From positions 1 to 39,180 of IMG/VR virus record IMGVR_UViG_3300042509_001215: 39,180 nucleotides of DNA; one strand, given 5' to 3'. The stretch comes from a virus. Each line of letters starts with the position of its first letter. Positions within the stretch are counted from its first letter, which is position 1. Made by a program: the position numbers and the translations under genes. Below are positions 11,319-24,983 of the stretch, in pieces. Below the pieces are notes generated by a model. That model had not been told where the DNA came from. It did not search any database and saw only the letters and a list, made by a program, of their open reading frames with translations.

Positions 11319-11572
11319 GCGTGTGGTTCCTCTGTTGCTTTGTTTTCAATAAGCTTGTCACGCTCATCAAGTATTGTTATTGCAAAAGACATCATTTTCT
11401 TATAACTATCTGGATTGTTCATGATGCTATTATAGTGATGTCCACAAAACATTAGTATTCCCTCAATGCCTGTTACTTGAACTAATGCTTCTGCTGCACA
11501 AGAATCACAACGGTCTGTTGCTTTCAAGATCCATTCTGGCTTAACAGTCTCATCTTTAATCATTGTAGTCAT
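11315..11572 (-). CDS. Small Cys/His zinc-binding protein
   Basis: 85 residues. A DRCDSCAAEALVQV segment followed by a GILMFCGHHYN segment gives C-x2-C and C-x2-H-type ligands, the layout of a short zinc-binding domain common in actinobacteria (DUF7455-like, from memory). The rest is helical and charged. An AAAGG lies six bases before the ATG at 11572. A role as an RNA polymerase or sigma-factor adaptor is possible; the sequence does not show it. Confidence 0.65.
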   Translation of the reverse strand: MTTMIKDETVKPEWILKATDRCDSCAAEALVQVTGIEGILMFCGHHYNSIMNNPDSYKKMMSFAITILDERDKLIENKATEEPHA

Positions 11573-11581
11573 AGTATACCT

Positions 11582-11764
11582 TTACTTTCTATTATCAGTG
11601 GAATAAAAACCACTACCGTTAAAAACTGCTCCTATATTAGAGTATACACGAACTAAGCTAGCATTGCAAGTTTCACATGTATAACCAGGATCGTTTTCCT
11701 TAATAGATCTTTCTTTTGTGTACCGTTTTGCACAAGGCATACAGTCATATTCATAAACTGGCAT
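11582..11764 (-). CDS. FmdB-family zinc ribbon protein
   Basis: 60 residues. It opens MPVYEYDCMPCAKRY, then has Y-T-C-E-T-C and ends FNGSGFYSTDNRK. This is the complete FmdB/CxxC_CxxC_SSSS pattern: P-x-Y-x-Y-x-C-x-x-C, a second C-x-x-C and G-x-G-F-Y-x-T-D. FmdB proteins are small zinc ribbons thought to be regulatory. The start is the second methionine of the frame (MLIMPVYEY), two bases after the stop of the previous gene. Confidence 0.85.
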   Translation of the reverse strand: MPVYEYDCMPCAKRYTKERSIKENDPGYTCETCNASLVRVYSNIGAVFNGSGFYSTDNRK

Positions 11765-11766
11765 AA

Positions 11767-12378
11767 TTAACAATCATGAATCCATGTAACAATGGCATAT
11801 TTTTCACCAGATGTAACTGGGTGTGCTATATGTCTATAAGCATAATTAGACGGAAACACCAATAATGACCCAGCTTTTGGCTTAATCTTTATTCCAAAGT
11901 TAACGAACTCAATCTCTCCCCCCTCGTAGTCTTCATTTAAATAAACTATGGGAGACACCACCCTTCTAGATGATGTATCTCCATCGTAATGTGCTTTGTA
12001 GTACTGTGAATCTGTATATTTTAATAAGCTATTGCTCTCTGTGTAAAAAAATGTTTCATTTATATTAAACATTGAACGATAACTATACAAGTATACATTA
12101 AGAATTTTATTAAACTTTTCATTTATATTTTTTAGATCTTTATCTGTCTCTGAGGCTTTTTTCAAAGAAAGTGAATAGTTTGTTCTTACTTTATGTATTC
12201 CAAGGTTAGCATTTTCTTCTTCACTTTTAACTTTTCCTTTTGAAAAATATACTTGAGATTCTTGGTCTGAAGATATATTACTTATAGTAATAAGGTCTTC
12301 AGCCAAGCCATCCCAAACATCTTCATATATAGCAATTACACCAGCAAGCGTATATGTTGGCTTAATTGAGTTTAACAA
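11767..12378 (-). CDS. 2OG-Fe(II) oxygenase, prolyl-4-hydroxylase type (copy A)
   Basis: 203 residues. Fe ligands H130 and D132 lie in AHYDGD, followed by VSPIVYLNEDYEGGEIEF, then the distal H183 in YRHIAHPVTSG and the 2-oxoglutarate-binding K193 in KYAIVTW. This H-x-D ... H ... K layout, with L-N-x-x-Y-E/D-G-G-x-x, is that of prolyl-4-hydroxylase-like dioxygenases. It needs Fe2+, O2 and 2-oxoglutarate. The likely target is a protein or peptide proline, but this is inference. The start appears to be TTG at 12378: the only upstream in-frame codons after the preceding stop give no ATG or GTG. It resembles the 23403-23933 protein. Confidence 0.82.
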   Translation of the reverse strand: MLNSIKPTYTLAGVIAIYEDVWDGLAEDLITISNISSDQESQVYFSKGKVKSEEENANLGIHKVRTNYSLSLKKASETDKDLKNINEKFNKILNVYLYSYRSMFNINETFFYTESNSLLKYTDSQYYKAHYDGDTSSRRVVSPIVYLNEDYEGGEIEFVNFGIKIKPKAGSLLVFPSNYAYRHIAHPVTSGEKYAIVTWIHDC

Positions 12379-12384
12379 GATTAA

Positions 12385-12585
12385 TCACTTAACCTTGTTA
12401 CCAAACTTAGCCCAGACTCTTTCATGTAAGAAATATCCAAGTGCTTCCCAACCAATGTAAAGAAGAGCACCAAGACTTGCATACTCCCACTCACCAGTAA
12501 ATAAATAAATTACTCCAGCAACTCCAACAAGGTGAAAAGTTTCCCAACTTGCTGTTTTTAATAGTGTTCTTTTAGTTGATTCCAT
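12385..12585 (-). CDS. DUF2061 membrane protein, copy 2
   Basis: 66 residues. Same plan as the 10305-10508 protein: a K-R-T-L-L-K-T-A-S-W opening, a hydrophobic centre VAGVIYLFTGEWEYASLGALL and the terminal HERVWAKFG. The two copies are diverged, so they are not a recent duplication. Function unknown. The start overlaps the stop of the endolysin gene by one base (TAATG), so it is translationally coupled to lysis-enzyme production, which makes a lysis-related (holin-like) role worth considering. Confidence 0.82.
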   Translation of the reverse strand: MESTKRTLLKTASWETFHLVGVAGVIYLFTGEWEYASLGALLYIGWEALGYFLHERVWAKFGNKVK

Positions 12586-13226
12586 TATAGAGCCACTGAA
12601 CCCTTTCCTCCGCCAGAAGACTTCTTTGCTACAGTCTTTGCTGATTTCTTTGCAGCATCTGCAGTTGTAGCTTTAACAGGTGTTGCTGCCAACTTGTTTA
12701 GTAGTGGGGTATTCTCTTCACCAGTATAAACTGGACGGCCCCAACCAACTACAGCATTAACTAGCTTCTTCTTATTGTTCTTTACATATGCACGAGTCTT
12801 TTCTACGCACATACCACCATTACGCTGATCTCCCTTTGCAGTTCCAGATGTATTTCCTTCAATAACTTGTATAGTTCCATCTCCATTGTTCTTAATGCAA
12901 AGACCAACATGTGAAATACGATTTACACCATCATCTGGGAAATCAAAATAAATCCAGTCTCCTGCTTGTGGGTCATCGTTACGAGCATCTGACCAACGCT
13001 CAGCCTTCTTAAACCAGTCTGCTGCTGCTACTGTTGATGCTGACTTAGGGAATGATTTTACTCCCGCAGTAAACGCACACCAAGAAACGAATGACTGGCA
13101 CCATGGTTGGAAGTTAACCTTTATCCATGCACCGTACTTTGTTTCGTTATCTTTTGGGCCTTCAATCGTGCCCACTTCTTTCTTTGCAATATCAATGATT
13201 GCTTCTAGTGATCCTTTAGTTGCCAT
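12585..13226 (-). CDS. CHAP-domain endolysin
   Basis: 213 residues. The CHAP cysteine peptidase core runs from about 25 to 150: C43 in QPWCQSFVSWC is the nucleophile, H106 in NRISHVGLC the base, and E123/N125 in VIEGNTSG the third position. Usual reaction: amidase or endopeptidase cleavage of peptidoglycan cross-links. The C-terminal about 40 residues are Ala/Lys-rich and end AKKSSGGGKGSVAL, like the tail of the membrane protein at 4668-4955. No signal peptide, so export needs a holin. AGGAGGG lies four bases before the ATG. The promoter is 13252-13281. This is the best-marked lysis gene here. Confidence 0.88.
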   Translation of the reverse strand: MATKGSLEAIIDIAKKEVGTIEGPKDNETKYGAWIKVNFQPWCQSFVSWCAFTAGVKSFPKSASTVAAADWFKKAERWSDARNDDPQAGDWIYFDFPDDGVNRISHVGLCIKNNGDGTIQVIEGNTSGTAKGDQRNGGMCVEKTRAYVKNNKKKLVNAVVGWGRPVYTGEENTPLLNKLAATPVKATTADAAKKSAKTVAKKSSGGGKGSVAL

Positions 13227-13251
13227 TTTACCCTCCTATAGGTATCTATCT

Positions 13252-13281
13252 ATTATAGCATTAGGAGGCTTTGTGTGTCAA
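13252..13281 (-). promoter_or_regulatory. Strong promoter of endolysin
   Basis: The minus strand has TTGACA (13276-13281), an 18-bp spacer, and TATAAT (13252-13257), with TGC just before it making an extended -10. It is a near-perfect sigma70 site. The start would be around 13245, giving a short leader with the AGGAGGG SD. The -35 sits inside the 3' end of the HNH gene. Confidence 0.85.
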
Positions 13282-13536
13282 ACGATAATGAGTTCTTATT
13301 CTATGACAGTTAGCACAGACTACCTCACACTTTGCTATTTCTTTTTTAATGGCTGCCCAAGAAAATCCATCATGAATCATTCTTGAGATGTTATATTTTT
13401 TATCATGCAGGTGATCAAAATCTAAAACTATATGATTATTAACGCCACAGTCTACACAGCCAGATGACTCTTTTATTTCAGACAGTCTTTTTTTAAACTG
13501 TTGCTTGTTGTAGTGAACCAACTCTTTGTCAGTCAT
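13261..13536 (-). CDS. HNH endonuclease
   Basis: 91 residues. Zinc knuckle CVDCG, the first catalytic strand LDFDHLHD, G-F-S-W, then EVVCANCHRIRTH: this is the compact C-x-x-C ... D-H ... C-x-x-C-H HNH core. Such small HNH nucleases may be free-standing homing endonucleases or packaging nucleases; its position next to lysis genes rather than terminase makes a homing or selfish role more likely. An extended -10 ends eight bases before the ATG, so the transcript is probably nearly leaderless. A perfect inverted repeat pair lies immediately upstream (13566-13647). Confidence 0.8.
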   Translation of the reverse strand: MTDKELVHYNKQQFKKRLSEIKESSGCVDCGVNNHIVLDFDHLHDKKYNISRMIHDGFSWAAIKKEIAKCEVVCANCHRIRTHYRLTHKAS

Positions 13537-13544
13537 AGACTTTA

Positions 13545-13553
13545 ATTATATCA
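13545..13553 (-). promoter_or_regulatory. Extended -10 for HNH gene
   Basis: The minus strand reads TGATATAAT, eight bases before the ATG at 13536. No -35 is seen. The HNH gene therefore has its own promoter and is not simply part of the Hsp20 transcript. Confidence 0.6.
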
Positions 13554-13565
13554 ACAAATATTAAG

Positions 13566-13647
13566 CCCCACACAGGCAATTCACCTGACTTGCGCCACGG
13601 TCTCTATCCAATGGGTAACTAATCCATCACTAAGGTCCTGTGTGGGG
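13566..13647 (-). ncRNA. Candidate small structured RNA
   Basis: Two arms pair perfectly over 11 bp (13566-13576 with 13637-13647, CCCCACACAGG/CCTGTGTGGGG) and enclose 60 bases that can form internal helices, for example GATGG/CCATT. On the minus strand a TACAAT box at 13656-13661 would start transcription near 13649, exactly at the base of the stem. It is not a tRNA, having no T arm or D arm. It has no U tract after the 3' arm, so it is not an ordinary terminator. Strand and boundaries are inferred; it could be an mRNA leader or tail structure instead. Confidence 0.4.
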
Positions 13648-13661
13648 ACATTTATATTGTA

Positions 13662-14078
13662 CTACTTGATTTTGATTGTCTTAGGCTTCTTTTCTTCAGG
13701 AACAATGCGTACTACATTAATGTGTAGCATTCCATCCTTTAGCTCTGCAGAAGTCACTTCCATGTATTCTCCAAGAGCAAAAGACCTTACAAACTTTCTA
13801 CCTGCGATACCTTTATGAACTACCTCTACATTTGCAACCTCAACAATCTCACCCTTGATAATTAATGTTCCATTATCTACTGAAACATCAATATCTTCTT
13901 TTGAAAAACCAGCGACAGCCAGTGAAATCTTGTACGTATCTTCATCTAGTTTGATAAGATCATACGGAGGGTATGACTGTGAGTTTGTTTTGTGTGCTGT
14001 ATTTAGGCGACTTAGCTCTCTGTTGAAGCCAATAAAAAAAGGATCATTGAATAGATCCATTGCATGTGTTACTACCAT
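13662..14078 (-). CDS. Hsp20 small heat-shock protein
   Basis: 138 residues. An alpha-crystallin domain is clear: PPYDLIKLDEDTYKISLAVAGF, then KEDIDVSVDNGTLIIKGE, then the signature IAGRKFVRSFALGEYMEV (R-x-F-x-R-x-F-x-L-like) and L-K-D-G-M-L-H-I-N-V. The C-terminal region ends in P-E-E-K-K-P-K-T-I-K-I-K, with an I-x-I/V-type tail. It holds unfolded proteins without ATP and could protect virion assembly or keep lysis proteins soluble. AAAGGGG lies six bases before the ATG; promoter at 14134-14142. Such genes are known in cyanophages; in an actinophage it is uncommon. Confidence 0.9.
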   Translation of the reverse strand: MVVTHAMDLFNDPFFIGFNRELSRLNTAHKTNSQSYPPYDLIKLDEDTYKISLAVAGFSKEDIDVSVDNGTLIIKGEIVEVANVEVVHKGIAGRKFVRSFALGEYMEVTSAELKDGMLHINVVRIVPEEKKPKTIKIK

Positions 14079-14133
14079 TTTATTCCCCTTTCAAGCGAAT
14101 AAGTTAATGTATCCCCGTAGGCAATACAATTAT

Positions 14134-14142
14134 ATTATAGCA
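14134..14142 (-). promoter_or_regulatory. Extended -10 for Hsp20 gene
   Basis: The minus strand reads TGCTATAAT, ending 55 bases before the ATG at 14078. TTGAAT is near at a short spacing, so the extended -10 probably carries the recognition. It overlaps the end of the SGNH gene. Confidence 0.65.
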
Positions 14143-14956
14143 TACTATGAAATGATTCAACAAGGTGTATTTGTTGATGTAGTCCCCAGTGAGGATGACC
14201 AAGCTTATCGTCAGCAGCAAAGTCAAAAAGATCTGCAGCGTACTCTTGATGACATGTCCTAGTTTTCCCGTCATTAATAAAATCACCTAAAAAGTAACTA
14301 TCTAAATTGATTCTATAAAGAATATCAGAATACGATGTATCATTATAAGAAGTCCACAAAAGTTTAATATTGTTAGTCTTACAATATTGATCTAACATCT
14401 TCATAAACATCAAATTATAAAAAATTGGTACTTCTTCTGGAATTACCTCATCTCCACTATGTGGTAGCTTTGAAAACTTTTCAATTTTACTATTATTAAT
14501 AAATATGTTTTGTATATACGCTCTATCTTGATCAGAAATGTTTGGCTTTTTATCTACACCAAAAATATCTTTTACATATGGCATCTCCATTCTTGACATT
14601 GGAAATACACCAAGTATATATTCTGGATGATAAAATTCTTTAAAAAATTGAAATGCTTTTATTACTTGTGCTTGCATGCTGTCGCCACCTTTTGCTAAGC
14701 TGATATATGGCATATTTGTTTTTTCTGAGAGTAAGAATGGCCATGTATACTCTATAGGTAGACCAACACCCAAGGTTTGAGAACATCCCAAAACCAAAAC
14801 CTTTTGATCTTTAAATTCTTCAGACCTATAGCCATATGAATTATATTCATAATATATTTGTCTGTTATCATTTAACATTATAGTTCTTCCAGGGTCTCTG
14901 GAACTCATTTTTTTTAAAGACCTTGAAAAAAGATCTAGAAAATTAACCTCAGTCAT
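14135..14956 (-). CDS. SGNH-hydrolase-like protein, copy 2
   Basis: 273 residues from the ATG at 14956 (MTEVNFLD), eight bases after an AAGGAAA and overlapping the previous stop as ATGACTGA; the longer frame to 15022 is inside the upstream gene. It carries KVLVLGCSQTLGVGLP (GxS serine motif), GGDSMQAQ, FPMSRME and the final FAADDKLGHPHWGLHQQ with Asp and His. It is a clear paralogue of the 179-1084 protein at other ends of the same modification toolkit. Presumably it adds or removes acyl groups on a glycan or lipid; the exact reaction is unknown. Confidence 0.65.
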   Translation of the reverse strand: MTEVNFLDLFSRSLKKMSSRDPGRTIMLNDNRQIYYEYNSYGYRSEEFKDQKVLVLGCSQTLGVGLPIEYTWPFLLSEKTNMPYISLAKGGDSMQAQVIKAFQFFKEFYHPEYILGVFPMSRMEMPYVKDIFGVDKKPNISDQDRAYIQNIFINNSKIEKFSKLPHSGDEVIPEEVPIFYNLMFMKMLDQYCKTNNIKLLWTSYNDTSYSDILYRINLDSYFLGDFINDGKTRTCHQEYAADLFDFAADDKLGHPHWGLHQQIHLVESFHSML

Positions 14957-15599
14957 GCCAATATTTCCTTCCATCTGGAACTTTACTATACTTGTCAGGA
15001 TATCCAATACCTGGCCTTCCATCTAATGCAAAATCAGCATACTGACCATTTACATCAACATAGTGCAAAAATGCCTGTGCCTGCCAAGATCCAACAGGTG
15101 CATCAAATGGTTCACGCCAATGCTCTAGACTAACACCTTTGTAAATTACCATATCTCCAGGGAGCGTAATATTTTCTTTTCCATCTACCCAAATATTCCA
15201 ACTATAATTTTTATCATCTGTATTATAAAAACATCCTAGGTTAACTGTTGCTGATATCTCACAAGCAAACCTGTCTTTGTGTTTTTTGAGGTAATCTCCA
15301 GTTTTATATAGTCTGTGGTATGAATATGTTGGTGAAAGAGTAAGTCCTGTGGCCAGCTCAACTGTGTGATGCATTGCTACAAGTAGTGATTCTGTAATAG
15401 GGTTTGCATAGCCAACCTGTGTAGGAGGACTTATAATGTCATTTTTAATGTTTGGGTTTGAAATTGAATCAAAATATATTGCATTAGCAAGAATATTTGC
15501 TTCATTTTGTGTTAATGCATTAGATACTTTAACATAGCCATTTTTAGTAAAGAGATAAGAATTCTCTTTATTTTTATCAACTGGATTAATGTATGACAT
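14949..15599 (-). CDS. 2OG-Fe(II) oxygenase-like protein (copy B, divergent)
   Basis: 216 residues. A double-stranded beta-helix pattern: YSYHRLYKTGDYLKKHKDR gives the H107-x-D109 iron pair, then a long N-L-G-C-F-Y-N strand, LPGDMVIYKGVSLEHW with distal H160, and a W-Q-A-Q-A-F-L-H-Y strand. It differs from the two prolyl-hydroxylase-type copies: the L-N-x-x-Y-x-G-G stretch and the terminal K-Y are absent, so it belongs to another branch and may use a different substrate. AGGAGA lies six bases before the ATG. It is immediately followed by the SGNH-like gene with an eight-base overlap, so the two act together. Confidence 0.65.
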   Translation of the reverse strand: MSYINPVDKNKENSYLFTKNGYVKVSNALTQNEANILANAIYFDSISNPNIKNDIISPPTQVGYANPITESLLVAMHHTVELATGLTLSPTYSYHRLYKTGDYLKKHKDRFACEISATVNLGCFYNTDDKNYSWNIWVDGKENITLPGDMVIYKGVSLEHWREPFDAPVGSWQAQAFLHYVDVNGQYADFALDGRPGIGYPDKYSKVPDGRKYWHD

Positions 15600-15623
15600 C
15601 TGATTCTCCTAACTATTACATTG

Positions 15624-15696
15624 CTGGTCTGGCAAGACTTGAACTTGCGACATGGGCATTAACAGTGCCCCGCTCTGCCAACTGAGCTACAGACCA
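15624..15696 (-). tRNA. tRNA-Asn (anticodon GUU)
   Basis: The acceptor is TGGTCTG/CAGACCA, the D arm GCTC/GAGC, and the anticodon stem GGGCA/TGCCC holds CTGTTAA with anticodon GTT. The T arm is GCAAG/CTTGC with loop TTCAAGT. The discriminator is G, as in bacterial tRNA-Asn. CCA is not encoded (the next bases are CAA). It lies just below the subtilase stop; no strong private promoter was seen, so it may be processed from a longer transcript. Confidence 0.93.
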
Positions 15697-15702
15697 AAAC
15701 CT

Positions 15703-16557
15703 TTATCTAGCAATAAATACATACCCTAAAACTTTTGGCAAAGAAGATAAAAAATCTCCAAAAGTTTTTGATTGATTTAGAGTTACATACTTTGTTGCTG
15801 CTACTACGGTAGCTCCAGAAGTTTGAGAAGCTGCATAAGTTGATACAACTCCGTTATACATTGTTACAGGAATATCTCCACGTGTAACAAGATCAAGTCC
15901 AGGACCACGATTTGTACTTGGAACCAGGTTTACTTGAGAACTTTGCAATGAGCCAACACCGATTACGTCAACGACACAAGATGGAAAGCCAACGATTTTG
16001 TCTGATCTATCGTTACCAGTTGCAGCAAAAGTTGGAATATTTTGTGCCTTTAAAGATGCTACAGCATTGATAGTATTAGTATCTGATGTGCAAGCCAATA
16101 GGTTGTTTTTTGATGTACCTGATTGACTAATAGATACAGCATCAATACTATATTTTGATGCATTCTTTGATACCCAGTCAATTGCTAAGGCTAAAGACTG
16201 TGGCTGGTTTCCTGAGTTACCCTGTGCCGTAATGTCTGCAATTCTAACAAATACAATCTTAATGTTTGGATTGATTGCTAAAGCTGCCTGTGTCATGTTA
16301 TGACCATGATACGTAGCATTACCAATGTTTGCAGGCCATACCTTTGAATTTGCTGAACCAACACCCTCCATGAACGCTAGTCCATTTGGGCAAGAACGGT
16401 TTACAGTGAAGCATGCTTCATAAATTACGGATGGAATCTTTGCAGAGTCTACTGCTGTGTCAATGATTGCCAATACCTTTTGATCTTGTGCCTGTGCTGG
16501 CTCAACTGCCATTAGTGCAAGTACTGCTGATAGTGCTACGATTACTAGTTTCTTCAT
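15703..16557 (-). CDS. Secreted subtilisin-like serine protease
   Basis: 284 residues. A Sec signal peptide: MKKLVIVALSAVLALMAVEP followed by A-Q-A, with cleavage expected after residue 23. Subtilase catalytic residues: D33 in LAIIDTAVD, H84 in TYHGHNMTQ, oxyanion N182 in AATGNDRS. S244 lies in YAASQTSGATVVAA, where the usual G-T-S-x-A-x-P is degenerate (A-A-S, no proline), so activity might be altered. Two Cys pairs may form disulfides outside the cell. A phage-encoded secreted protease could process surface proteins or degrade host or competitor proteins. AAAAGGGG lies seven bases before the ATG. Probably co-transcribed with the acidic small gene upstream. Confidence 0.75.
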   Translation of the reverse strand: MKKLVIVALSAVLALMAVEPAQAQDQKVLAIIDTAVDSAKIPSVIYEACFTVNRSCPNGLAFMEGVGSANSKVWPANIGNATYHGHNMTQAALAINPNIKIVFVRIADITAQGNSGNQPQSLALAIDWVSKNASKYSIDAVSISQSGTSKNNLLACTSDTNTINAVASLKAQNIPTFAATGNDRSDKIVGFPSCVVDVIGVGSLQSSQVNLVPSTNRGPGLDLVTRGDIPVTMYNGVVSTYAASQTSGATVVAATKYVTLNQSKTFGDFLSSLPKVLGYVFIAR

Positions 16558-16579
16558 TTTGTTACCCCTTTTTTGTTTG

Positions 16580-16801
16580 TTATTGTTGTTTGATTTTAAA
16601 AACTACTTGACAAGGGTCTCCGCCCTCTTCCCATTCTTGCATTTCTTCATCTGTCATGTAACTGTCACCTTCGTGTGTGTTACAAAATGGTTCTGTAATC
16701 CAGCCACGCTTGATTCCATTTTCCATCCAGATTTCAAATTCATCATAGTCAGACTCTAATGCCTGAATATCTTTTAATATTTCTTCAAACTCTTCGTTCA
16801 T
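16580..16801 (-). CDS. Small acidic protein, unknown
   Basis: 73 residues, very acidic (E/D rich) with W-M-E-N-G-I-K-R-G-W-I-T-E-P-F, C-N-T-H, and E-G-G-D-P-C-Q-V-V. The single Cys-His pair and the final G-G-D-P-C element look like a conserved small phage or actinobacterial protein of unknown function. It has a full promoter (16808-16836) whose -10 ends six bases before the ATG, with no SD, so it is probably a leaderless transcript. The gene reads on into the subtilase. Confidence 0.6.
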   Translation of the reverse strand: MNEEFEEILKDIQALESDYDEFEIWMENGIKRGWITEPFCNTHEGDSYMTDEEMQEWEEGGDPCQVVFKIKQQ

Positions 16802-16807
16802 ATTATA

Positions 16808-16836
16808 AGTATATACCTATCCCTGAAGTATGTCAA
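16808..16836 (-). promoter_or_regulatory. Consensus promoter, leaderless start
   Basis: The minus strand has TTGACA (16831-16836), a 17-bp spacer and TATACT (16808-16813), then six bases (TATAAT) and the ATG at 16801. -35, spacer and -10 are all near-ideal. It is embedded in the last codons of the proteasome-like gene. Confidence 0.85.
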
Positions 16837-17335
16837 CTGGACCAATACAAGATGTACTGTATGCAACCGCTGCATTTAATGCTAGAGTCAGACGACGCTT
16901 GGGATCTTTATGATTTTGGGTAGCATGAAGAGAACCCATAGCGAAGTCTGCCCCAGATCCTATAGCACAGAAATCTCTGTCATAGGAAACCAATGTAAGG
17001 CCATCTGCATCATGTTCATACAGCTTTCCTTTTACTCCAATTAATAGCGATAGCTCACTGTCTTTACCGCCAATATCCCACTCAGTATAAAAAGCTTTTA
17101 GTGACTTTAAGAATTTACCATGCATAAATTTATCAGGATTGCCTTCTAATGCAGGTGGTACAAAGTTGTATTGAATAATTTGTCCATCAAATGTTCCTGC
17201 AAAACCAAAAACATAAGGTCCTGACTTCCATACCTTTGGTTTATCAATTGGTACTATGTAGCTACCCTCAGAGGCACCACGTTCTCCAGCAAGGTATACC
17301 TTACCATCCTTCATTATTCCTGCAATACAAGTCAT
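16817..17335 (-). CDS. Proteasome-like Ntn-hydrolase (HslV-type peptidase)
   Basis: 172 residues beginning MTCIAGIMKDGKVYLAGERGAS. After Met removal Thr2 is the expected N-terminal nucleophile of the proteasome beta / HslV fold; G-x-R/D-x-A-S and the strand YVFGFAGTFDGQ follow in the family order, and CAIGSGADFAMGSL matches the A-I-G-S-G-x-x-x-A signature. Length is close to HslV (about 174). It would form a ring with peptidase activity; a partner ATPase is not in this window, so it may use the host's Mpa/ARC or a phage one. Leader GGGGTAGGC precedes the ATG; promoter at 17363-17391. Confidence 0.8.
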   Translation of the reverse strand: MTCIAGIMKDGKVYLAGERGASEGSYIVPIDKPKVWKSGPYVFGFAGTFDGQIIQYNFVPPALEGNPDKFMHGKFLKSLKAFYTEWDIGGKDSELSLLIGVKGKLYEHDADGLTLVSYDRDFCAIGSGADFAMGSLHATQNHKDPKRRLTLALNAAVAYSTSCIGPVDILQG

Positions 17336-17381
17336 GCCTACCCCTAAGTTTACTGTATTACCAGTATACCAGAGGTAGGCA
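17335..17381. repeat. Inverted repeat around the -10 of the proteasome-like gene
   Basis: TGCCTACC (17335-17342) and GGTAGGCA (17374-17381) are perfect 8-bp arms separated by 31 bp, containing the -10 box and most of the leader. One arm lies in the promoter spacer and the other touches the start codon. It is too far apart for a simple RNA hairpin because the upstream arm is not transcribed; a looping or dimeric DNA-binding site is possible. Confidence 0.35.
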
Positions 17382-17391
17382 CGAGTGTCAA
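17363..17391 (-). promoter_or_regulatory. Consensus promoter of proteasome-like gene
   Basis: The minus strand has TTGACA (17386-17391), a 17-bp spacer and TGG-TATACT (-10 at 17363-17368). The start should be near 17356, giving a leader of about 20 bases with a GGGG SD. Confidence 0.85.
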
Positions 17392-17407
17392 TTAACCTAA
17401 AATATGA

Positions 17408-17695
17408 CTAATTAGCTTTTTTATCTACAGTTTTAAATGCATCATTTATTTCTGCGATAGTAAGCTTGCCATCGTCCAAAAAAGCTCGTGCCAGTCTTTC
17501 AATAACTGTTGCCACTCCTAATAGACCTGCAAGCATTACTGCCTGAATTGTATCAATTCCTACTACTGCTCCAGCACCAAGTACTGATAGACCAGAAGCA
17601 GCAAAGACTGCTACGATACGCATCAAAACATTTGTCAAAGCTTTTTGTGGGTGCTCCTTTTTTGGAGCTTCTACTACCTTTTTTCTAGTTGCCAT
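17408..17695 (-). CDS. Membrane protein, holin-like
   Basis: 95 residues. A basic N-terminus (MATRKKVVEAPKK) precedes two hydrophobic stretches: about residues 26-46 (IVAVFAASGLSVLGAGAVVG) and 50-66 (QAVMLAGLLGVATVIERL). A short hydrophilic tail with L-T-I-A-E-I-N-D-A-F follows. Size and pattern fit a class II holin or other small phage membrane protein. It is one base below the 17697-17903 gene. No known family was recognised. Confidence 0.5.
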   Translation of the reverse strand: MATRKKVVEAPKKEHPQKALTNVLMRIVAVFAASGLSVLGAGAVVGIDTIQAVMLAGLLGVATVIERLARAFLDDGKLTIAEINDAFKTVDKKAN

Positions 17696-17696
17696 T

Positions 17697-17903
17697 TTAT
17701 TTTTCCTTTCGTAGTGGTATTGTGATTAGCCATACAACTGTGGTTGCAAGAACTGCAATCCCAACAATGTCTCTGGCTGATCCTGTTAATGTTAGCCATG
17801 CTATAAAGAAACCAAGAAGAGTAAAAGCTTGTGCGATTACTTCAACTCCAGCGTCTTTCAGCCATGTGAAGAATCCCTTCACAACTTTTTTGATTATTTT
17901 CAT
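17697..17903 (-). CDS. Small membrane protein
   Basis: 68 residues with basic ends (MKIIKKVVKGFFTWLKDAG ... RKEK) and two hydrophobic helices (about 23-40, ALTLLGFF-type, and 48-62, GIAVLATTVVWLITI). GAGGAGATAAT precedes the ATG. It is linked to the holin-like 17408-17695 gene and follows the large secreted protein gene, suggesting a membrane or lysis module. The pair of small membrane proteins could form a holin/antiholin or holin/spanin set; this is inference. Confidence 0.5.
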   Translation of the reverse strand: MKIIKKVVKGFFTWLKDAGVEVIAQAFTLLGFFIAWLTLTGSARDIVGIAVLATTVVWLITIPLRKEK

Positions 17904-17904
17904 A

Positions 17905-20112
17905 TTATCTCCTCATCCCAATCATTACGTTTGCAATCTGTGAAACAATGATTACTGGAATAATGACTTCCTGGGCCTTTTCTCTCTGATCATCTGTCAT
18001 ATCGCTACCTAATTCAGAGAAATTAGATAGTAATTCTGCTACGTCCACCTCAAGTACTGCTCCAATTGGGTCTGCTAAAAATGCTTCTGTTTGTACTTCT
18101 GTTACTGCATCTGCTAATGTAAATGGCATTGGTGTATCCCCTGCTGATTCTGCTCTGTCAGTAAACTCAACAAATGCTTCGGCAAGTGCTGGGTTAGACT
18201 TCATCTGTTCAGCAATCTGTGCAACTTCTGACGGCTTAATACCAAGGTCTTCTGCAACTTCTACTTTTGCTTCTTGCGTCAATGCTTTGAGTGTTTGACT
18301 TACTGCTGTAATTTGTTCAGGGGAAAGAGTAACTAACTTATTATCCTTGCTTGTAAGGTTAGCAATAACTCCAGACAAGTCTTCTGCTGTCCCAGTACCC
18401 TTTTCAGGAATAAGTTCTGCTAAAACTTCATCTTTAATTTCTACATCTGGCTCAGTCCATGGGTTTTCTTCAGGCTCAGGATCTGGTCCTGGTTCTGGTG
18501 AAGGTTCAGGCGTAGGCTCTTCTGTGGGTTCCTCAGTAGGCTCTGGAGTTGGTTCTGGAGTTTGTTCTGGATCTGGTGTAGGTTCTATTGTAGGTTCAGG
18601 AGTTGGCTCCTCTGTAGGCTCTTCTGTAGGCTCTTCTGTAGGCTCTTCTGTAGGCTCTTCTGTAGGCTCAGGAGATGGCTTTGGCGTAGGACTAGGCTTT
18701 GGTTCCTCTGTAGGCTCTTCTGTAGGCTCAGGGCTTGGTTCCTCTGTTGGCTCATCTGTAGGCTCTTCTGTAGGCTTTGGAGATGGATCATCTGTAGGTT
18801 CAGGACTTGGTTCTGGGGTGGGTTCTGGGGTAGGCTCTGGAGTTGGTTCTGGAGTAGGCTGATTGGCTGCAGCGTTAGCTGCTGCCTGAGCAATAGCAGA
18901 CTGAATCTCTCTTTGTAATTGTTCTTCATAGTAACGCCATGCGTTATCAATCGCACTATTAAGATTATTTATTGACTGCTCGTATGCATCTTCAGCATTA
19001 TTTTTATTTTGCAATGCAGTGGCAACATTTAAAACTGCGTTGTTATATTCGTTTGTTTTATTAATTAATGTTTGATTATAATTATTTAATGTTGAAACTG
19101 CTTGATTATAAATATTTAGTTTGTCATTATATACATCTTGTGCTAAGTTCTTTGTAGCAAGTGCTTGGTTATAATCATTTATCTGCTCCTGTGTTGCACC
19201 TGGTCCAGAAGAAAATGTATTAAGGTTACAGCTAAAATTTTGTCCCCAGACTCTTGGATTTCCAGCATAGTCACATCCTGCTCCAGTCCATCCTCCAGGA
19301 ATTGCCCATCCAAGATGATATGAACCTGGGCCTCCGCCGTTATACCACCATATTTCTACATCTAAAGTCTTGTCTTCACTAACATCATATGCTGGAGAAT
19401 AGTCGCTCCATGTAGCACCTTGCTCTACCCAGTTATCAACGGCAAGTTGCCCATCAACATACATTCTAAACCCATCATCTGTATATCCTGCAAAGTAGGT
19501 TGATGTGAACCAAGACGGTACTGTTATTTGACCAGTGAACTTAACTATAAAGTTTTCGTATCTGTTACCACAAACTGGTAGTTGCATGTGGCTTGAGTTC
19601 CAAGTACCAGAACAAATCACAGATCCTGGGGTAGCGACATTACCCTGTCTAACAAGAGTATAAACAGTGTATTCCAAACCTGTTCCTCCAGCAGACTGCA
19701 TGTTAGATTGTGCTGTTTGTAGATTAATGTTGGCTACTTCAAGTGCATCTAGTGCATTATTCTTATTAGTTAGGGCAGTGGCTATTGTGGCTGTTTGTCC
19801 ATCTACCGCTGATTGGGCTAAATCTTTTTCTTCAAGTGCCGTGGTTTCTGCGTCAAGGGAGTCATCATATAGGACAGAGGTTTGTGTCTTGGCTTCTTCT
19901 GCAGATACGGCAAGATCATATTTGTCTTCTGCTTCTTGGATTAAGGATATAAATTCATCCTTGTATCCAAGGTCGTCTATGCTGTTGTTTAGTTCCTCAA
20001 TTTGCTGAGCAGCAACTGTTAGTGGATCGTCAGAGTGGGCCTCTGTAGGGGCTATAAGAAGCCAAGCAAAGGCAAGGGTAGAAACTGTAAATATACGCAA
20101 GAGCTTTTTCAA
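17905..20112 (-). CDS. Large secreted protein: PA14-like domain plus Pro-rich repeats
   Basis: 735 residues from a TTG at 20112; a GTG at 20130 gives 741, but GAGGAG (20123-20128) lies in the right place for the TTG, and the resulting [20 protein letters not shown] is a better Sec signal peptide (cleavage near T-E-A-H). Then: coiled coil (about 35-140); a beta-rich region (145-300) with [18 protein letters not shown] and a long D-Y-S-P-A-Y-D element typical of PA14 carbohydrate-binding domains; a second coiled coil (310-415); about 130 residues of PTPEP/PTEEP repeats; an acidic helical domain with a terminal hydrophobic helix that may anchor it. Probably a cell-surface or virion fibre-like protein that binds sugar. 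It has a promoter at 20135. Confidence 0.65.
18460..18861 (-). repeat. Pro/Glu/Thr repeat block (PTPEP/PTEEP)
   Basis: About 134 residues made of P-T-P-E-P, P-T-E-E-P, P-S-P-E-P and P-K-P-S units. The DNA repeat is imperfect 12- to 15-bp units with many identical stretches, so copy number could change by recombination. Polyproline-II extended stalk; Thr and Pro residues are possible glycosylation or hydroxylation sites. It is long enough to span a cell wall or reach beyond a capsid. Confidence 0.9.
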
Positions 20113-20134
20113 GTGGTGTACTCTCCTCACACCT

Positions 20135-20143
20135 ATTATATCA
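20135..20143 (-). promoter_or_regulatory. Extended -10 for the large secreted protein
   Basis: The minus strand reads TGATATAAT, ending seven bases before the start of GAGGAG. No -35 was found. This placement puts the GTG at 20130 too close to the -10 (four bases) and supports the TTG at 20112 as the start. Confidence 0.6.
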
Positions 20144-20176
20144 AATTATTCAGTTAGACATATAGGCAAAAAGAAA

Positions 20177-20198
20177 GGGAGCCAGTTTCCTGACTCCC
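20177..20198 (-). terminator. Intrinsic terminator with GNRA loop
   Basis: Nine-bp stem GGGAGTCAG/CTGGCTCCC (one G-U) with a GAAA tetraloop, followed on the minus strand by TTTCTTTTT. It ends the transcript of the secreted coiled-coil protein at 20216-21622 and insulates the promoter at 20135. Confidence 0.9.
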
Positions 20199-20215
20199 AA
20201 ACTTTTAAGTTATTG

Positions 20216-21622
20216 TTACTTAACTAAAGCAACCTTAGCCTTTGGATTCTTCTTGTTCCACTGAGTGGCCAACTTGTTAAATGCAGCCTTCATGGACTTA
20301 ATCGCTGCAGCATTATCTGCAGTCAACTTAGCAATCTGTGCATCCTTAGCAAGAAGAGCAGCATCTGATGCAGTCTTTGCATCAGCAAGTGCCTTTGCAC
20401 CTGTTGCCTTTTCTGTTGCTACAGCATCTGCAACTGCCTTATCTGCAGCAGCCTTGGCATCTGCAAGTGCCTTATCTGATGTAGCCTTTAGATCAGCAAG
20501 TGCCTTAGCATGTGAAGCCTTTAGTTCTGCAAGTTCTGCAGTAACTGTTGCAAGTGAAGCATTAGCTGCTTCCAGCTCCAACTTGAACTGTGCGATAATC
20601 TTATCTGCAGCAACGCCTGCATCTGCAAGTGCCTTTAGAGCATCTGCTTCTGCCTTCTTTGCATCAGTTGCCTCTGCTGTTGCCTTTAGTAGGTCAGCAT
20701 TAGCCTTTGCTAGGCTTGCTGCTAGTTCTGACTTAGCCTTAACTTCTGCTTCAAGCTGAGCCTTTGTAGATGCATGTGCAGCCTTCTCAGCAGCAAGTGC
20801 TGCCTTCTCAGCAGCAAGCTCTGAAACTAGATCACGAACTGCAATTTCTGCAAATGGTGAAAGTGTACGAGCAGGAAGTCCAACTACGTCTGCAGATGTT
20901 GCATCAGAAGATGTTGTTGGAGCAAATGTAATAAGTGAGCGTGTTCCAGTTGCTGGTAGTGTTGCAGTAAACTTTGCAACTCCAAAATCTGAAAGTGTTG
21001 CACCAGTTGTTACTGTTGCTGTATCTAGTGTTGCTGATGCAGCAAACACTGCTGCTGTAATTGACTTACCAGATACCTTGTTACCAAATGCATCTGTTGC
21101 TGTAACTAGAATATCATGCTTTGTACCAGCAGCTCCTGCTGATGGAGCAGATACTGTTAGGTTGTTGATCTTTCCAGCAGTTCCCTGTACATAGTATGTA
21201 AGAGTTGTTCCACCGTTGTTGATTACAACTGTACCAATTGCTGTTGTCTTTGTGTAGACAAAAAATGTTGCAGTATTTCCAGTACCTGTTGCAATTGTCA
21301 AAGATGATGATCCTGACGATGCTCCTACTGGTGCTGCTGATGTGTGTAGTGCAGACACGATTGTTGCGTTAGTTGCTGAAGCAGTAACTGATGTTCCTGT
21401 TGCAACTGTTGCTACAAAGCGCAATGCATCTGCTGCATCAATTGTGTTGTCCTCTGGGACTGGCAATGAAGCAGGTGTAGCAATTACACCATTAGTTGTA
21501 TTTGCTACAGAGTTTAGCGTTACTGCAACAGTCATTACCGTTGCATTCGCAGGTGCTGCTGCGACAGTTCCCAAAGTCATGGCTGCAGCCACGGCAAGGG
21601 CGATCTTCTTAAATGAATTCAT
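20216..21622 (-). CDS. Secreted Ala-rich coiled-coil protein with Ig-like region
   Basis: 468 residues. Signal peptide MNSFKKIALAVAAAMTLGT ending A-A-A-P-A-N-A (cleavage near 28). Residues about 30-265 are Thr/Ser/Gly-rich beta segments; AGTKHDILVTATDAFGNKVSG is the core of a Big-1 or invasin-type Ig domain. Residues 270-430 form a long Ala/Lys/Glu coiled coil (repeated KALADAK, A-A-E-K-A-A). A basic tail (NKKNPKAKVALVK) closes it. It looks like a host surface-layer-type protein rather than a normal virion part. AAGGAG lies five bases before the ATG and a strong terminator follows, so it is a self-contained unit. Its role may be surface coating of the host or an adhesin. Confidence 0.6.
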   Translation of the reverse strand: MNSFKKIALAVAAAMTLGTVAAAPANATVMTVAVTLNSVANTTNGVIATPASLPVPEDNTIDAADALRFVATVATGTSVTASATNATIVSALHTSAAPVGASSGSSSLTIATGTGNTATFFVYTKTTAIGTVVINNGGTTLTYYVQGTAGKINNLTVSAPSAGAAGTKHDILVTATDAFGNKVSGKSITAAVFAASATLDTATVTTGATLSDFGVAKFTATLPATGTRSLITFAPTTSSDATSADVVGLPARTLSPFAEIAVRDLVSELAAEKAALAAEKAAHASTKAQLEAEVKAKSELAASLAKANADLLKATAEATDAKKAEADALKALADAGVAADKIIAQFKLELEAANASLATVTAELAELKASHAKALADLKATSDKALADAKAAADKAVADAVATEKATGAKALADAKTASDAALLAKDAQIAKLTADNAAAIKSMKAAFNKLATQWNKKNPKAKVALVK

Positions 21623-21633
21623 TTTTCTCCTTG

Positions 21634-23406
21634 TTATATTAGTTTTAGGTTATCAAGAAAACTCTTGACATCTTCAGGCATTTGCCTGTCTTCCAATTCT
21701 ACCATAGCTCTCTGCTGTCTTGCAACTTTATCCGCAGATCCCCAGGTATGAATCTCTATCTCAATATTCATTTCCTTTGGGGTATGAGAAATGGCACCAA
21801 ATACTGCCCCACAAACAGCATCTGCCAAGTCCTTAGACTTCTTTCTAGGGTGATCTACACGATTACCCTTCATGATCTTAAGCTCTGACATTTCTTCCAG
21901 AAGCAAGGGAATCATGGGCATAGCAATACGCTCTTCATAGACCATCATTGCTAAATCTTCGTAGTGTTTTTTGGCAACAGAAACAGTATCAGTTCTTATT
22001 CCTACCTGCTTTAGCTCTTGCTGAATATCATATGACTGCCAACGGTCAAATGAAACAATACCAATATTAAAACCTTGTCTGCGTAGATTAATAATCCATT
22101 GTTTTACTTCAGATAGATTAACGGGTCCTTCTGCCTTTGGTTCCCACCATGCTACTGCATCTACTACAACTATGGGCGCTACCTGTTCATAATCTTTAAT
22201 TACCTGGATATTTACCCATTTATCTACGTGAGCAATAGCAACTGCACACTTATCGTGCTTCTGTGCAAGGTCAGCGTGAATGTAATATTGCTTGTCTGGG
22301 TCTGGCTTAAAGTTTTCTGCAAACCTTCTAAAACTATCCACAGGATTTGTTAAAGTCATACAGTTAATAAGTTTATCCTTTTGCTTAAAGAAAGCATCTG
22401 ATGCGTAGGTTGGTGTACACAAAAAGCGCATCATTGCATCTCCTAAGTCTGTTAGGAATGCTATCTTAAAGTCATCAATCTGTCTGGTAGGGTTTACTTC
22501 CCATGTTGGTCGCTTTAATGCCAATACCTTTGGAATCTTGTATGAAATAATATGATCTTCTTCCCATGCAATCTCAAAGAAGTTGTCTGGGTTATCTTCT
22601 GGTAGGTCTTCGTTAATAATAAACTTATGTGATCTATCTACAATTTCTTTCTCAGCAATTACTGCATCGTACCTTTGTGAAATAAAGTCACCTGGATAGC
22701 GTGGGAATGAAAGCAAAACTACCTTACCAAGATCAGGAAAACGAGAGTCTACGGTACCACGGAAAGCTTTATATATATTGTCCGCAGTCTTTCCTTGTTC
22801 ATTTCCTGTTGCTACTTCTGATGCAAAGCCAGAAATTTCATCAAGCACAGCCATAAACAAGTTCAAACCCTCATGTGATTCACGCTCTGAGTGACCAGAG
22901 TAAACAGTGATTGACTTATCAAACTCAATTGAATCTGCTTTAGGGTTATACTTTCCAGCAAACCAGGGTGATCTTTCAATCTTTGACTTAAACCCTTTAA
23001 AGAAAACATTTTTAGCCTGTTGAGCGTTAATAGCAACGTTAATAATATCAATAGCATCTCCTGCAGGCTTACCGTAGTAGACTGCTGGATCTTTTAAACA
23101 TAACATCTTATATACTACATATGCACATGCTACTGTAGATACGAAGTCTTTTCCAGATCCCTTGCCAAGTTGCAGAATGATCTCATTCTTTGTGTACTTT
23201 TTAAAATATGCTTCACCATCATCACGAATATCCATTACATCTTCTTTACGATATATCTGACTCATTGCTTCAACTATGTCGTATTGTATATCAGAAAGCG
23301 GTGGTTGGCCAAGATAATCTGGAGACTCAACAAATGTTTTTGCATCTACTGGCTGTTCAACAAAATGGTTTTCCTTTAATACTTCTAAGAACTCTTTAAA
23401 ACTCAT
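21634..23406 (-). CDS. terL: Terminase large subunit
   Basis: 590 residues from the ATG at 23406, which overlaps the previous stop as ATGA; the upstream TTG at 23427 has no support. ATPase: Walker A LGKGSGKDF (K86; the final Thr/Ser is Asp, as in a subset of phage terminases) and Walker B LFMAVLDEISGF (D189, E190). RNase-H-type nuclease: HADLAQKHDK (D379), DRWQSYD (D454) and HPRKKSKDLADAV near residue 555. It cuts and translocates DNA into proheads. All catalytic sites look intact. The 2OG oxygenase between it and the putative small subunit is unusual. Confidence 0.93.
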   Translation of the reverse strand: MSFKEFLEVLKENHFVEQPVDAKTFVESPDYLGQPPLSDIQYDIVEAMSQIYRKEDVMDIRDDGEAYFKKYTKNEIILQLGKGSGKDFVSTVACAYVVYKMLCLKDPAVYYGKPAGDAIDIINVAINAQQAKNVFFKGFKSKIERSPWFAGKYNPKADSIEFDKSITVYSGHSERESHEGLNLFMAVLDEISGFASEVATGNEQGKTADNIYKAFRGTVDSRFPDLGKVVLLSFPRYPGDFISQRYDAVIAEKEIVDRSHKFIINEDLPEDNPDNFFEIAWEEDHIISYKIPKVLALKRPTWEVNPTRQIDDFKIAFLTDLGDAMMRFLCTPTYASDAFFKQKDKLINCMTLTNPVDSFRRFAENFKPDPDKQYYIHADLAQKHDKCAVAIAHVDKWVNIQVIKDYEQVAPIVVVDAVAWWEPKAEGPVNLSEVKQWIINLRRQGFNIGIVSFDRWQSYDIQQELKQVGIRTDTVSVAKKHYEDLAMMVYEERIAMPMIPLLLEEMSELKIMKGNRVDHPRKKSKDLADAVCGAVFGAISHTPKEMNIEIEIHTWGSADKVARQQRAMVELEDRQMPEDVKSFLDNLKLI

Positions 23407-23933
23407 GACCAAAAACCAACTATACAATACTTAACGCCAGAAGTAACTGGGTCTGCTGAATGAATAAACTCTTCTGATGATGGAAATACAAATAGAGTGT
23501 TTGACTTTGCTTTAAATGACTTATTAAGATTGCTAAAGGTAATTGTTCCACCATCATAGTTATCGTTTAGGTACAGCACTGCAGATATTTTTCTAGGAAA
23601 TTCTTCAGTAGAATCTATATGCTCTGCAAAAAATTGTCCTGGAACATACCTGACAACGTGATATCCTTCTCCAGTAGTTATATTAATGCTGTGTCTTATT
23701 GCATACTCATTAACAATAAAATCAACTTCTTTTCTTAGCAGATCGTTTAATTCAACATCTATTCGTTTAACGTTTGCATCCCTTATATCTTTTGCTGAAA
23801 GCTTATTGTTTGTTTTGTATCTAGACTCCGCAACTCTTGCATCTGCCCATTCATGCTCTGAACAATGACCTAAAACATAGTCTAATTTTATGTTTGGTAC
23901 ATCATAGATAGAAATCATGTCTAAACTATTCAT
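23403..23933 (-). CDS. 2OG-Fe(II) oxygenase, prolyl-4-hydroxylase type (copy C)
   Basis: 176 residues. GYHVVRYVPGQFFAEHIDS gives H105 and D107; the centre ISAVLYLNDNYDGGTITF matches the family; the distal H158 lies in FIHSADPVTSG and the 2-oxoglutarate K168 in KYCIVGFW. All four cofactor residues are present. It resembles the 11767-12378 protein and would hydroxylate a peptide proline or similar residue. It sits precisely between the small and large terminase genes, overlapping both (eight and four bases), so it is expressed with virion assembly. Confidence 0.85.
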   Translation of the reverse strand: MNSLDMISIYDVPNIKLDYVLGHCSEHEWADARVAESRYKTNNKLSAKDIRDANVKRIDVELNDLLRKEVDFIVNEYAIRHSINITTGEGYHVVRYVPGQFFAEHIDSTEEFPRKISAVLYLNDNYDGGTITFSNLNKSFKAKSNTLFVFPSSEEFIHSADPVTSGVKYCIVGFWS

Positions 23934-24468
23934 TGATATCCACAGAAACTATAGTTAAAACTTCTCCCTCTTTTGCTATTGCTGATAGCCTTTGAAGGAT
24001 TATGTCTCTTACATCTGGGTGTGTTGATGCAATATCTCTAAGGATTCCTACCAACACTTCTTGTCTACGTTCAATTTCAACCATTTCTTCGGCAAGCTCT
24101 TTGTTTTCAAGTAGTCCAGCTTTTTGAAGCATATCAATGCGCTTAGACTCAATGTCCATTACAAGCTTAATTGCTGCTGTTTTTGCACTAAGGTTATTCG
24201 TCATTGATGCTTCGTCAATAACTTCATAAGATTTTAATATAAGCTTACTATAGTGTGCATCAGCTCCAGCAAGTGCATCCTTAGCACGAGCACGAATTGC
24301 TGTATTATTAGATGTTTTTTCTTTCCATTCATCAATGTATGCAACAACACGAGTTCTTGGAATAGCTAGCTCTTTTGATATGGTTGTTGGGTCGCTACCT
24401 TTTAGATACTCGCTAACAACATCATTCATTATGTCAAGATGCTTTACTAGTTCTTCTTCAGTTGACAT
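23926..24468 (-). CDS. Probable terminase small subunit
   Basis: 180 residues. The N-terminus contains a helix-turn-helix (VSEYLKGSDPTTISKELAI, then P-R-T-R-V-V-A-Y-I-D-E-W) that could bind the packaging site. A long helical middle (SKLILKSYEVIDEAS ... KTAAIKLVMDIESKRIDM) fits oligomerisation, and an I/V-rich acidic C-terminus could contact the large subunit. The assignment follows from HTH plus helical core plus position just upstream of terL; no exact family was recognised. GAGGGAAAGT lies before the ATG, and it overlaps the DUF3310 gene by eleven bases. Confidence 0.65.
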   Translation of the reverse strand: MSTEEELVKHLDIMNDVVSEYLKGSDPTTISKELAIPRTRVVAYIDEWKEKTSNNTAIRARAKDALAGADAHYSKLILKSYEVIDEASMTNNLSAKTAAIKLVMDIESKRIDMLQKAGLLENKELAEEMVEIERRQEVLVGILRDIASTHPDVRDIILQRLSAIAKEGEVLTIVSVDINE

Positions 24469-24700
24469 ACTTTCCCTCTAGTCTATTGATTTCATCCTTA
24501 ATGTAAAAGATTGCCTTCTCAAGATCTTGAATAGTTTTTGACTCATCTTTAAGTCCTGCTCTCCAAAGATACTTAAATGCATTACCAATATTAAAATTAC
24601 GATGACGAGTAATCTCTATACACTCAACACCAGATGGGTCTGTTGTATAATGACGTGGATGATTTACCTGATCTACTGTAATATTTAAATTATCACTCAT
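24458..24700 (-). CDS. DUF3310 family protein
   Basis: 80 residues from the ATG at 24700, which overlaps the previous stop as ATGAGTGA. The signature VNHPRHYTTDPSGVECIEIT, then F-N-I-G-N-A-F-K-Y-L-W-R-A-G, then D-L-E-K-A-I-F-Y-I is the full DUF3310 pattern of phage proteins linked to T7 gp1.7, a nucleotide kinase related to dideoxythymidine sensitivity. The role here may be nucleotide metabolism. Longer starts at 24730 or 24718 lie within the upstream small gene. Confidence 0.85.
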   Translation of the reverse strand: MSDNLNITVDQVNHPRHYTTDPSGVECIEITRHRNFNIGNAFKYLWRAGLKDESKTIQDLEKAIFYIKDEINRLEGKYVN

Positions 24701-24979: not shown

Positions 24980-24983
24980 AGTG

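Follow-up and report, generated by a model that had tools for sequence, protein, structure and literature searches.

Which proteins, if any, do the prolyl-hydroxylase-like enzymes of an uncultured phage modify? The question is raised by a 39,180-bp IMG/VR virus record (the window), which encodes, all on the minus strand, three 2-oxoglutarate (2OG)-Fe(II) oxygenases, here called A (11767-12378), B (14949-15599) and C (23403-23933), together with a PTPEP/EPT-rich repeat block (18460-18861) and a block of (P)PFF units (37049-37241). A preliminary description located the three open reading frames and both repeats accurately, and suggested that the enzymes hydroxylate these repeats, perhaps giving an attachment point for a sugar. 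What we find is an association of such oxygenases with the (P)PFF repeat, whose partner is an array of oxygenase genes outside the window, at 57272-66728 of a longer record, and not specifically A, B or C; the PTPEP repeat has no general link. The longer record (G001, also locus L003; 114,443 bp) is of the same phage species as the window, which matches it at 98.6% identity over window positions 1-18308 and 97.2% over 18098-37768, and both its ends fall within the gene of the PTPEP protein. By these matches G001 therefore shows nearly the whole genome.

The (P)PFF repeat and the oxygenase genes beside it

The (P)PFF block of the window, delimited with Tandem Repeats Finder (TRF), by translation and by its grammar, lies in a tail-fibre-like protein (36769-39180, minus strand; open frame 36772-39180, 803 aa) that runs off the right end of the window. 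Its full-length counterpart in G001 (18680-23365, 1561 aa) stands near tail genes, and a second G001 protein, of 358 aa, carries a 132-residue (P)PFF block directly upstream of the oxygenase array and on the same strand; we infer that the window's block is a second copy of this substrate type. Both G001 proteins have fn3 matches below the curated cut-off (1.9e-4 for the second, which is FN3-like), a cut-off exceeded by three of the four array-side repeat proteins, those of genomes G010, G017 and G026. With an FN3 domain and tail genes nearby, a neighbourhood searched in G001 only, the PF-block proteins have the marks of tail fibres.

The repeat follows a simple rule, read from 82 blocks (the window, G001 and 80 loci) as runs of P, F, Y, H and W only: one or two prolines are followed by an aromatic doublet with F in second place. 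In this set, which was found with PPFF and hence favours F, there are 743 PPFF, 242 PFF, 156 PPYF, 13 PYF, 12 PPHF and 9 PPWF units, with doublets making up 1189 of the 1192 aromatic runs. In G001 the blocks read as (P)PFF and lack Gly in every third position, and are thus not of the collagen Gly-X-Y type. Proline codons vary between CCA, CCG, CCT and a few CCC, and third codon positions are variable, so that selection acts on the protein and the blocks are coding sequence rather than a simple repetition of DNA. Between the block and the stop there is a median of 18 residues in the 78 of 82 blocks with a stop in view, and at most 60 in 58, a place near the C terminus that would suit a fibre tip. 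Behind the block of four fibre proteins (L107, L134, L144 and L167) there is, by eye, a stretch with variants of C-I-x-x-D-T which we take to be Hint- or intein-like, and which suggests autoproteolysis or splicing.

The association was first counted from the repeat side, in non-random samples of 80 from at least 120 matching stretches for each scan of the collection (from 93 for the (PF)6 pattern below). Scanning IMG/VR for PPFFPPFFPPFF gave the PPFF set (80 of at least 120 stretches) and a second scan, for PPYFPPYFPPYF, gave 57 new PPYF loci, of which 50 were searched as whole records; such DNA patterns need exact repeats and miss weaker ones. Control sets were scanned likewise, 80 PTPEP loci and 79 collagen-like GPQ loci with 50 of each taken to the whole-record search, and median record sizes are similar (18.6, 19.9 and 24.5 kb for PPFF, PTPEP and collagen). 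The oxygenase family PF13640 is present at E<=0.001 in 70 of 80 PPFF records (45/50 and 25/30), 68 of them above the curated cut-off, with at least two copies in 57, at least three in 51 and a maximum of 11, while PPYF records hold it in 41 of 50 with up to 15 copies. The PTPEP and collagen-like records hold it in 6/50 and 10/50, never in more than two copies, and its density is about 151 per Mb for PPFF versus 4.2 for PTPEP and 6.5 for collagen; neither control repeat was retained as a substrate class. At the level of loci (about 8-10 kb each) an oxygenase is present at 60/80 PPFF and 47/57 PPYF loci, compared with 1/80 PTPEP loci, 5/79 collagen-like loci and 12/80 loci of the terminase large subunit (TerL). 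Locus L141, a PPFF locus with many oxygenases that also matches the collagen pattern, was left out of the collagen controls, which with it would read 6/80. A permuted, composition-matched (PF)6 pattern had an oxygenase at 0/80 loci; of its matches 15/80 lie within an open frame of 120 aa or longer, versus 68/80 for PPFF, and the pattern controls for composition and not for a real protein repeat. The profile used at locus level derives from proteins of G001, namely array members, A and C, and favours array-like enzymes, and the PF13640 counts are independent of it. Near PPFF, 203 of 221 oxygenases are co-oriented with the block. The PPFF pattern also occurs on nine contigs of metagenome-assembled genomes, with an oxygenase in the surrounding DNA of two.

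Counted from the enzyme side, in 80 closely related loci that a single array oxygenase picked out (query identity at least 85%), the repeat is present at 54, and 25 of the 26 misses have less than 5 kb upstream; the remaining miss, L286, has 6.4 kb. With at least 6 kb upstream the repeat is seen at 39/40 loci, with at least 7 kb at 33/33 and with at least 10 kb at 23/23, and all 56 blocks lie on the enzyme's strand, 4.3-7.7 kb upstream. A further 3.37 Mb of other DNA holds eight blocks only, all in G001, G010 and G017 or G026. Of the two tests, the scans from the repeat side draw on the greater diversity. The preliminary description had put forward the co-occurrence of oxygenases and proline-rich repeats as a check, and this is seen strongly for PPFF, for PPYF and in the converse count but not, in general, for PTPEP.

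The array and its proposed action on the fibre

G001 has 13 PF13640 matches: the ten of the row at 57272-66728, those of C and A, and a weak one whose 25 bits fall short of the cut-off. By eye, H-x-D...H and a later K/R are present in every one of the ten array proteins, and the row further includes a short-chain dehydrogenase/reductase (SDR, PF00106), a DUF6065 protein and a phrog_7084 protein. Genomes G010, G017 and G026 each have six PF13640 matches in a comparable row with an fn3-positive repeat protein ahead of it, separated from the array by two small genes in G017. In all four genomes the array genes are orthologous and follow one order, save for one extra gene each within the row of G017 and G026 and the extra oxygenases of G001, and each of the four arrays encloses DUF6065 and phrog_7084 genes (3824-4552 and 5239-6015 of locus L087). 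The phrog_7084-like gene gave a structure model with a pLDDT of 32.5; among isolate phages this type is otherwise about 30% identical to proteins of haloarchaeal tailed viruses. Directly upstream of the repeat gene there is a collagen-like Gly-X-Y tail-fibre gene in two of the four genomes only, G001 (68001-68720, or 8001-8720 of L087; PF01391) and G010 (91463-92200). Counterparts in the array are mostly 50-93% identical between genomes (42-55% at one G026 position) and paralogues within one genome 23-45%, so the paralogues appear to be old and kept, which would argue for distinct tasks. Three of the ten G001 members were searched against the PDB, and the best sequence matches of two, at 60634 and 64552, are prolyl 4-hydroxylase (P4H), prolyl 3-hydroxylase and lysyl hydroxylase structures, including prolyl 3-hydroxylase 1 (P3H1) and lysyl hydroxylase 3 (LH3); for both, as for A and C, the closest solved relatives are prolyl hydroxylases.

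The phage encodes a tail-fibre-like protein whose FN3-like domains are followed, nearer the C terminus, by a (P)P-[FYHW]-F repeat, and the genes right after it form a conserved row of 2OG-Fe(II) oxygenase paralogues of prolyl-hydroxylase-like type. We propose a model that passes from these observed genes, their residues, their order and the association to activity, substrate and virion location. In it the enzymes would hydroxylate the prolines of the repeat post-translationally, each paralogue perhaps having its own position, context or regiochemistry, and the hydroxylation may determine how stiff, soluble or adhesive the fibre tip is. The repeat is precise, the P4H-like genes form a row that is closely linked to it and mostly co-oriented, and no such row accompanies the two other repeats tested; an enzyme-substrate relation is the simplest account of this, and with moderate confidence we favour hydroxylation of the (P)PFF fibre repeat by the array. 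Only tentatively do we extend this to an assembly line, in which six to ten anciently diverged oxygenases would write a patterned hydroxylation code on the (P)P-aromatic-F repeat at the tail-fibre tip and so form a mussel-adhesive-like or otherwise new material for holding the host. If hydroxylation of the repeat by the array is the right reading, it would bring a structural material with a new post-translational modification, hydroxylases gathered in a compact set and probably differing in site preference, and, for uncultured phages, one more layer of host recognition. That many uncultured phages, this one included, carry a fibre-like protein with a strict proline-aromatic repeat beside a hydroxylase-related row suggests that such a phage completes the chemistry of its own fibre.

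Two known systems bear on this proposal. Eriksson reportedly described, in 1999, the P4H of PBCV-1 and proline-rich peptide substrates. As in PBCV-1 (PDB 5c5t), a virus-encoded P4H-like enzyme here accompanies a virus-encoded proline-rich sequence, and a linked repeat protein of this kind is found for PPFF and PPYF, PTPEP having no such tie in general. PBCV-1 is said to be an algal virus with one enzyme, whereas the four tailed-phage genomes compared line up six to ten paralogues next to a single type of repeat. In the collagen system P4H, P3H1 and LH3 act as several peptidyl hydroxylases on one repetitive proline-rich fibre, and array members match chains of all three; the differences are that the repeat here is (P)PFF and not Gly-X-Y, and that collagen-like phage repeats bring no arrays. 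The pairing of a viral P4H with viral proline-rich substrates has the PBCV-1 precedent, which is cited in a passage of PMC9301287 where viral use of the enzyme is also called cryptic. Multi-copy phage oxygenases are likewise known, other roles being proposed for them in parts of PMC9602691 and PMC3037559, and a section of the former says that phage 2OG oxygenase functions lack specific investigation; relatives of human EGLN3 in phages are noted by the Phold authors in a portion of PMC12774648. Among the top-ranked matches in the open-licence PMC literature we found no description of PPFF or PPYF phage repeats or of their pairing with oxygenases; in one search the 20 matches listed out of 45 dealt mostly with antimicrobial peptides, besides mushroom cyclic peptides, a food hydrolysate and an EEG paper. 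The repeat and the pairing would be what is new, possibly new in kind if the enzymes write a pattern, and a tie to so exact a repeat supplies a candidate substrate and opens what the viral enzymes do to a direct test.

Several findings weigh against hydroxylation of the repeat by the array. PF13640 is missing from 10/80 PPFF and 9/50 PPYF records, and two of those ten PPFF records are 37-38 kb long. Of the 29 PPFF records of at least 30 kb, 24 have at least three copies and one has two, the other four having one or none (none in G046 and G098, one in G059 and G060). Array member 58516 of G001 has no PDB sequence match at E<=0.1, the module also includes the SDR and two genes of DUF6065/phrog_7084 type, and the cyanophage S-SCSM1 has no PF repeat despite 24 oxygenases. 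Relatedness also reduces the force of the counts. When loci are joined by any shared protein they form 40 groups at 80% (36 with PF13640) and eight at 50% (six with it), so that the raw counts overstate the statistical weight. A grouping by loose protein sharing chained nearly all loci together and was set aside. Such few groups, the collinear arrays of G001, G010, G017 and G026, and the presence of the lineage's TerL in 10 of 35 longer PPFF records (55-93% identity, an eleventh match being marginal) would all be expected if one transmissible cassette had merely spread among related phages, with linkage by descent and no function. We think this improbable, because PPFF loci hold a varied set of oxygenases (clustering at 40% identity leaves 45 clusters, with paralogues and G001 seeds in one count), the link holds for F-type and Y-type repeats alike, and three other TerL relatives of more than 70 kb (G008, G021 and G022) were found to have neither array nor repeat, G008 having a single lone oxygenase. 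Within the 39 of 80 TerL relatives covered by the whole-record PF13640 search, the repeat is in five records, accompanied by the array in G001, G010, G017 and G026 and by no PF13640 match in the 25-kb fragment G006.

The SDR and DUF6065 genes of the array also fit another reading, in which the oxygenases tailor a glycan or small molecule, of the host surface or as a virion decoration, and the (P)PFF fibre gene, with a role in receptor binding, simply happens to stand next to them in one cassette for interaction with the host. Other parts of the genome encode methyltransferases and glycosyltransferases, S-SCSM1 mixes oxygenases with sugar genes, and a G017 gene (274 aa) that lies between the array and the repeat gene resembles, by eye, the window's Gb3-type glycosyltransferase; all this agrees with it. 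We nevertheless regard tailoring of a glycan or small molecule as unlikely, as the nearest solved relatives of the enzymes hydroxylate peptides and the collagen-like fibre repeat is without arrays.

Cyanophage 2OG-Fe(II) oxygenases (PHROG 61, 81, 2297 and 3531) belong to the same superfamily and also come in multiple copies per phage; S-SCSM1, whose 24 are reported in a part of PMC9602691, differs in that its genes are scattered, up to four in tandem. Two annotated virion proteins of S-SCSM1 (L629 and L632; about 23.4-31.3 kb and 170.3-173.0 kb) have long PxPx tracts, which are possibly another substrate type. For cyanophages, where such genes are common, passages of PMC3037559 and PMC9602691 suggest that 2OG oxygenases tune 2-oxoglutarate and nitrogen metabolism or repair DNA. 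A metabolic or repair role of this kind predicts neither co-localisation with one repeat type nor at least six conserved paralogues in a row, and for the array we consider it very improbable.

Oxygenases A, B and C and the PTPEP protein

A (203 aa; PF13640 2.8e-17) and C (176 aa; PF13640 2.4e-14) are P4H-like and have the iron triad H-x-D...H and the K/R for 2OG of the superfamily, with exactly the residues that had been named for them, H130/D132/H183/K193 in A and H105/D107/H158/K168 in C. The best PDB sequence matches of A are the prolyl 4-hydroxylases 3itq/5hv0 (4.2e-8), which we take to be a Bacillus enzyme, and PBCV-1 5c5t (7.1e-7); that of C is 3itq (1.6e-6). At best A is 40-48% identical to array member 3 of the four genomes and C 29-38%, so by sequence they are of the same family as the array without being array orthologues. 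Probably both are peptidyl-prolyl hydroxylases too, outlying members of the array's enzyme family; singleton oxygenases also occur in records where no repeat was seen.

B (216 aa), which had been called a more divergent member, is indeed that. It has no Pfam family match and matches phrog_2954 at 1.1e-39, and H107/D109/H160 are invariant in 18 aligned sequences (L555 and L618 left out), as is R162; B has no K/R about ten residues past H160, where A and C have theirs. An AlphaFold2 model (pLDDT 83.8) has as its best Foldseek match the P. putida P4H 4j25 (6.6e-10, TM 0.59 to 0.67), and a second structure comparison (VIA) gives SnoN (Z 16.3) as best and PHD2 at Z 15.0. The model thus indicates a 2OG-oxygenase fold and a more distant member of the family, and since it does, the database label 'ferrochelatase' of phrog_2954 and phrog_3531 appears wrong. 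The phrog_3531 profile holds a B-like and an A/C-like part, and so the two types of enzyme are probably fused in other phages.

C lies between the terminase genes, as was described. Its start is inside the end of the gene of a small terminase-like protein (TerS, 23926-24468, minus strand; phrog_9507, which has no function there, the name being given by position), and its end overlaps TerL by an ATGA at 23403-23406. Among the 78 TerS-TerL junctions in view, counted with the window and before any dereplication, 67 have the two genes side by side, and the other 11 have an insert of about 500 bp, which is C in 11/11; C is an optional cassette. The earlier statement that C is made with the virion stands to the extent that its coupling to TerS and TerL fits late expression; the coupling shows no virion role, and C is absent from 67 of 78 junctions. 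PPFF-bearing records (G001 and G010) have C, as do fragments of up to 38 kb in which no PPFF was seen (G002, G003, G027 and G029), and the single PF13640 copy of G059, directly before TerL, is by position a C-type cassette. This optional occurrence, with and without PPFF in view, and the weak resemblance of C to 4iw3, an EF-Tu prolyl hydroxylase (0.0033), make it conceivable, if somewhat doubtful, that C alone is a moron cassette acting on a host protein, an EF-Tu- or ribosome-like target as for the Pseudomonas P4H, and inserted between TerS and TerL for late expression; the best PDB sequence match of C is a different P4H, 3itq.

The PTPEP/EPT-rich block, delimited by TRF and translation, is real and lies within a 741-aa linker protein (17905-20130, minus strand) with a PA14 domain (5.8e-6), a PT repeat match (5.7e-11) and, by eye, a signal-peptide-like start. 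C and a long proline-rich linker occur together at 5 of 6 loci with C versus 2 of 16 without it, in 22 loci left after dereplication of 27 usable ones by a crude ungapped identity that merged L004 with the window. The co-occurrence is mostly in one clade and has exceptions. L009, L010 and L011 (TerL 96% identical) keep the PTPEP protein, and L010 and L011 have the linker with an uninserted TerS-TerL junction and no C, L009 starting at TerL with its junction out of view; conversely L004 (TerL 99% identical to that of the window) has C and no long proline-rich run. The tie between PTPEP and C is clade-level co-occurrence only. As for the sugar, the GT25-family glycosyltransferase (2432-3907, plus strand; PF01755 2.6e-25) recurs in G001 at 98568-100043, far from the array, and the DNA stretches of the 80 TerL loci, which are short, show no relative; its role as a sugar-attachment partner is left unsupported by this, not refuted.

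Lineage and neighbouring features

TerL of the window (21634-23406, minus strand; phrog_2 5.8e-19) probably starts at 23406, the ATG of the ATGA overlap with C, and not at the TTG at 23427. It is 53% identical to TerL of Streptomyces phages such as Genie2, of the Stanwilliamsviridae, the nearest named genomes by this protein; Genie2 has no annotated oxygenase and no A- or C-like reading frame in the 20 kb examined. Our impression is of an actinobacterial host for the phage, to which a WhiB-like protein recognised by eye at 6935-7222 adds. The T4-like capsid family PF07068, tried as a lineage marker, gave no match, control genomes included, and is hence uninformative. A TerS homologue is found in 80 of 84 sequences searched. 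A promoter and terminator scan gave counts at the level of shuffles. Following the gene at 20216-21622 there is a terminator-like stem (20177-20198; nine pairs, six of them GC), of a kind no commoner than in shuffles, which could mark the TerS-C-TerL unit off from the PTPEP gene. Also in the window, two proteins (179-1084 and 14135-15022; about 300 aa each), which have no Pfam family, look related by eye and share a G-C-S-Q-T motif.

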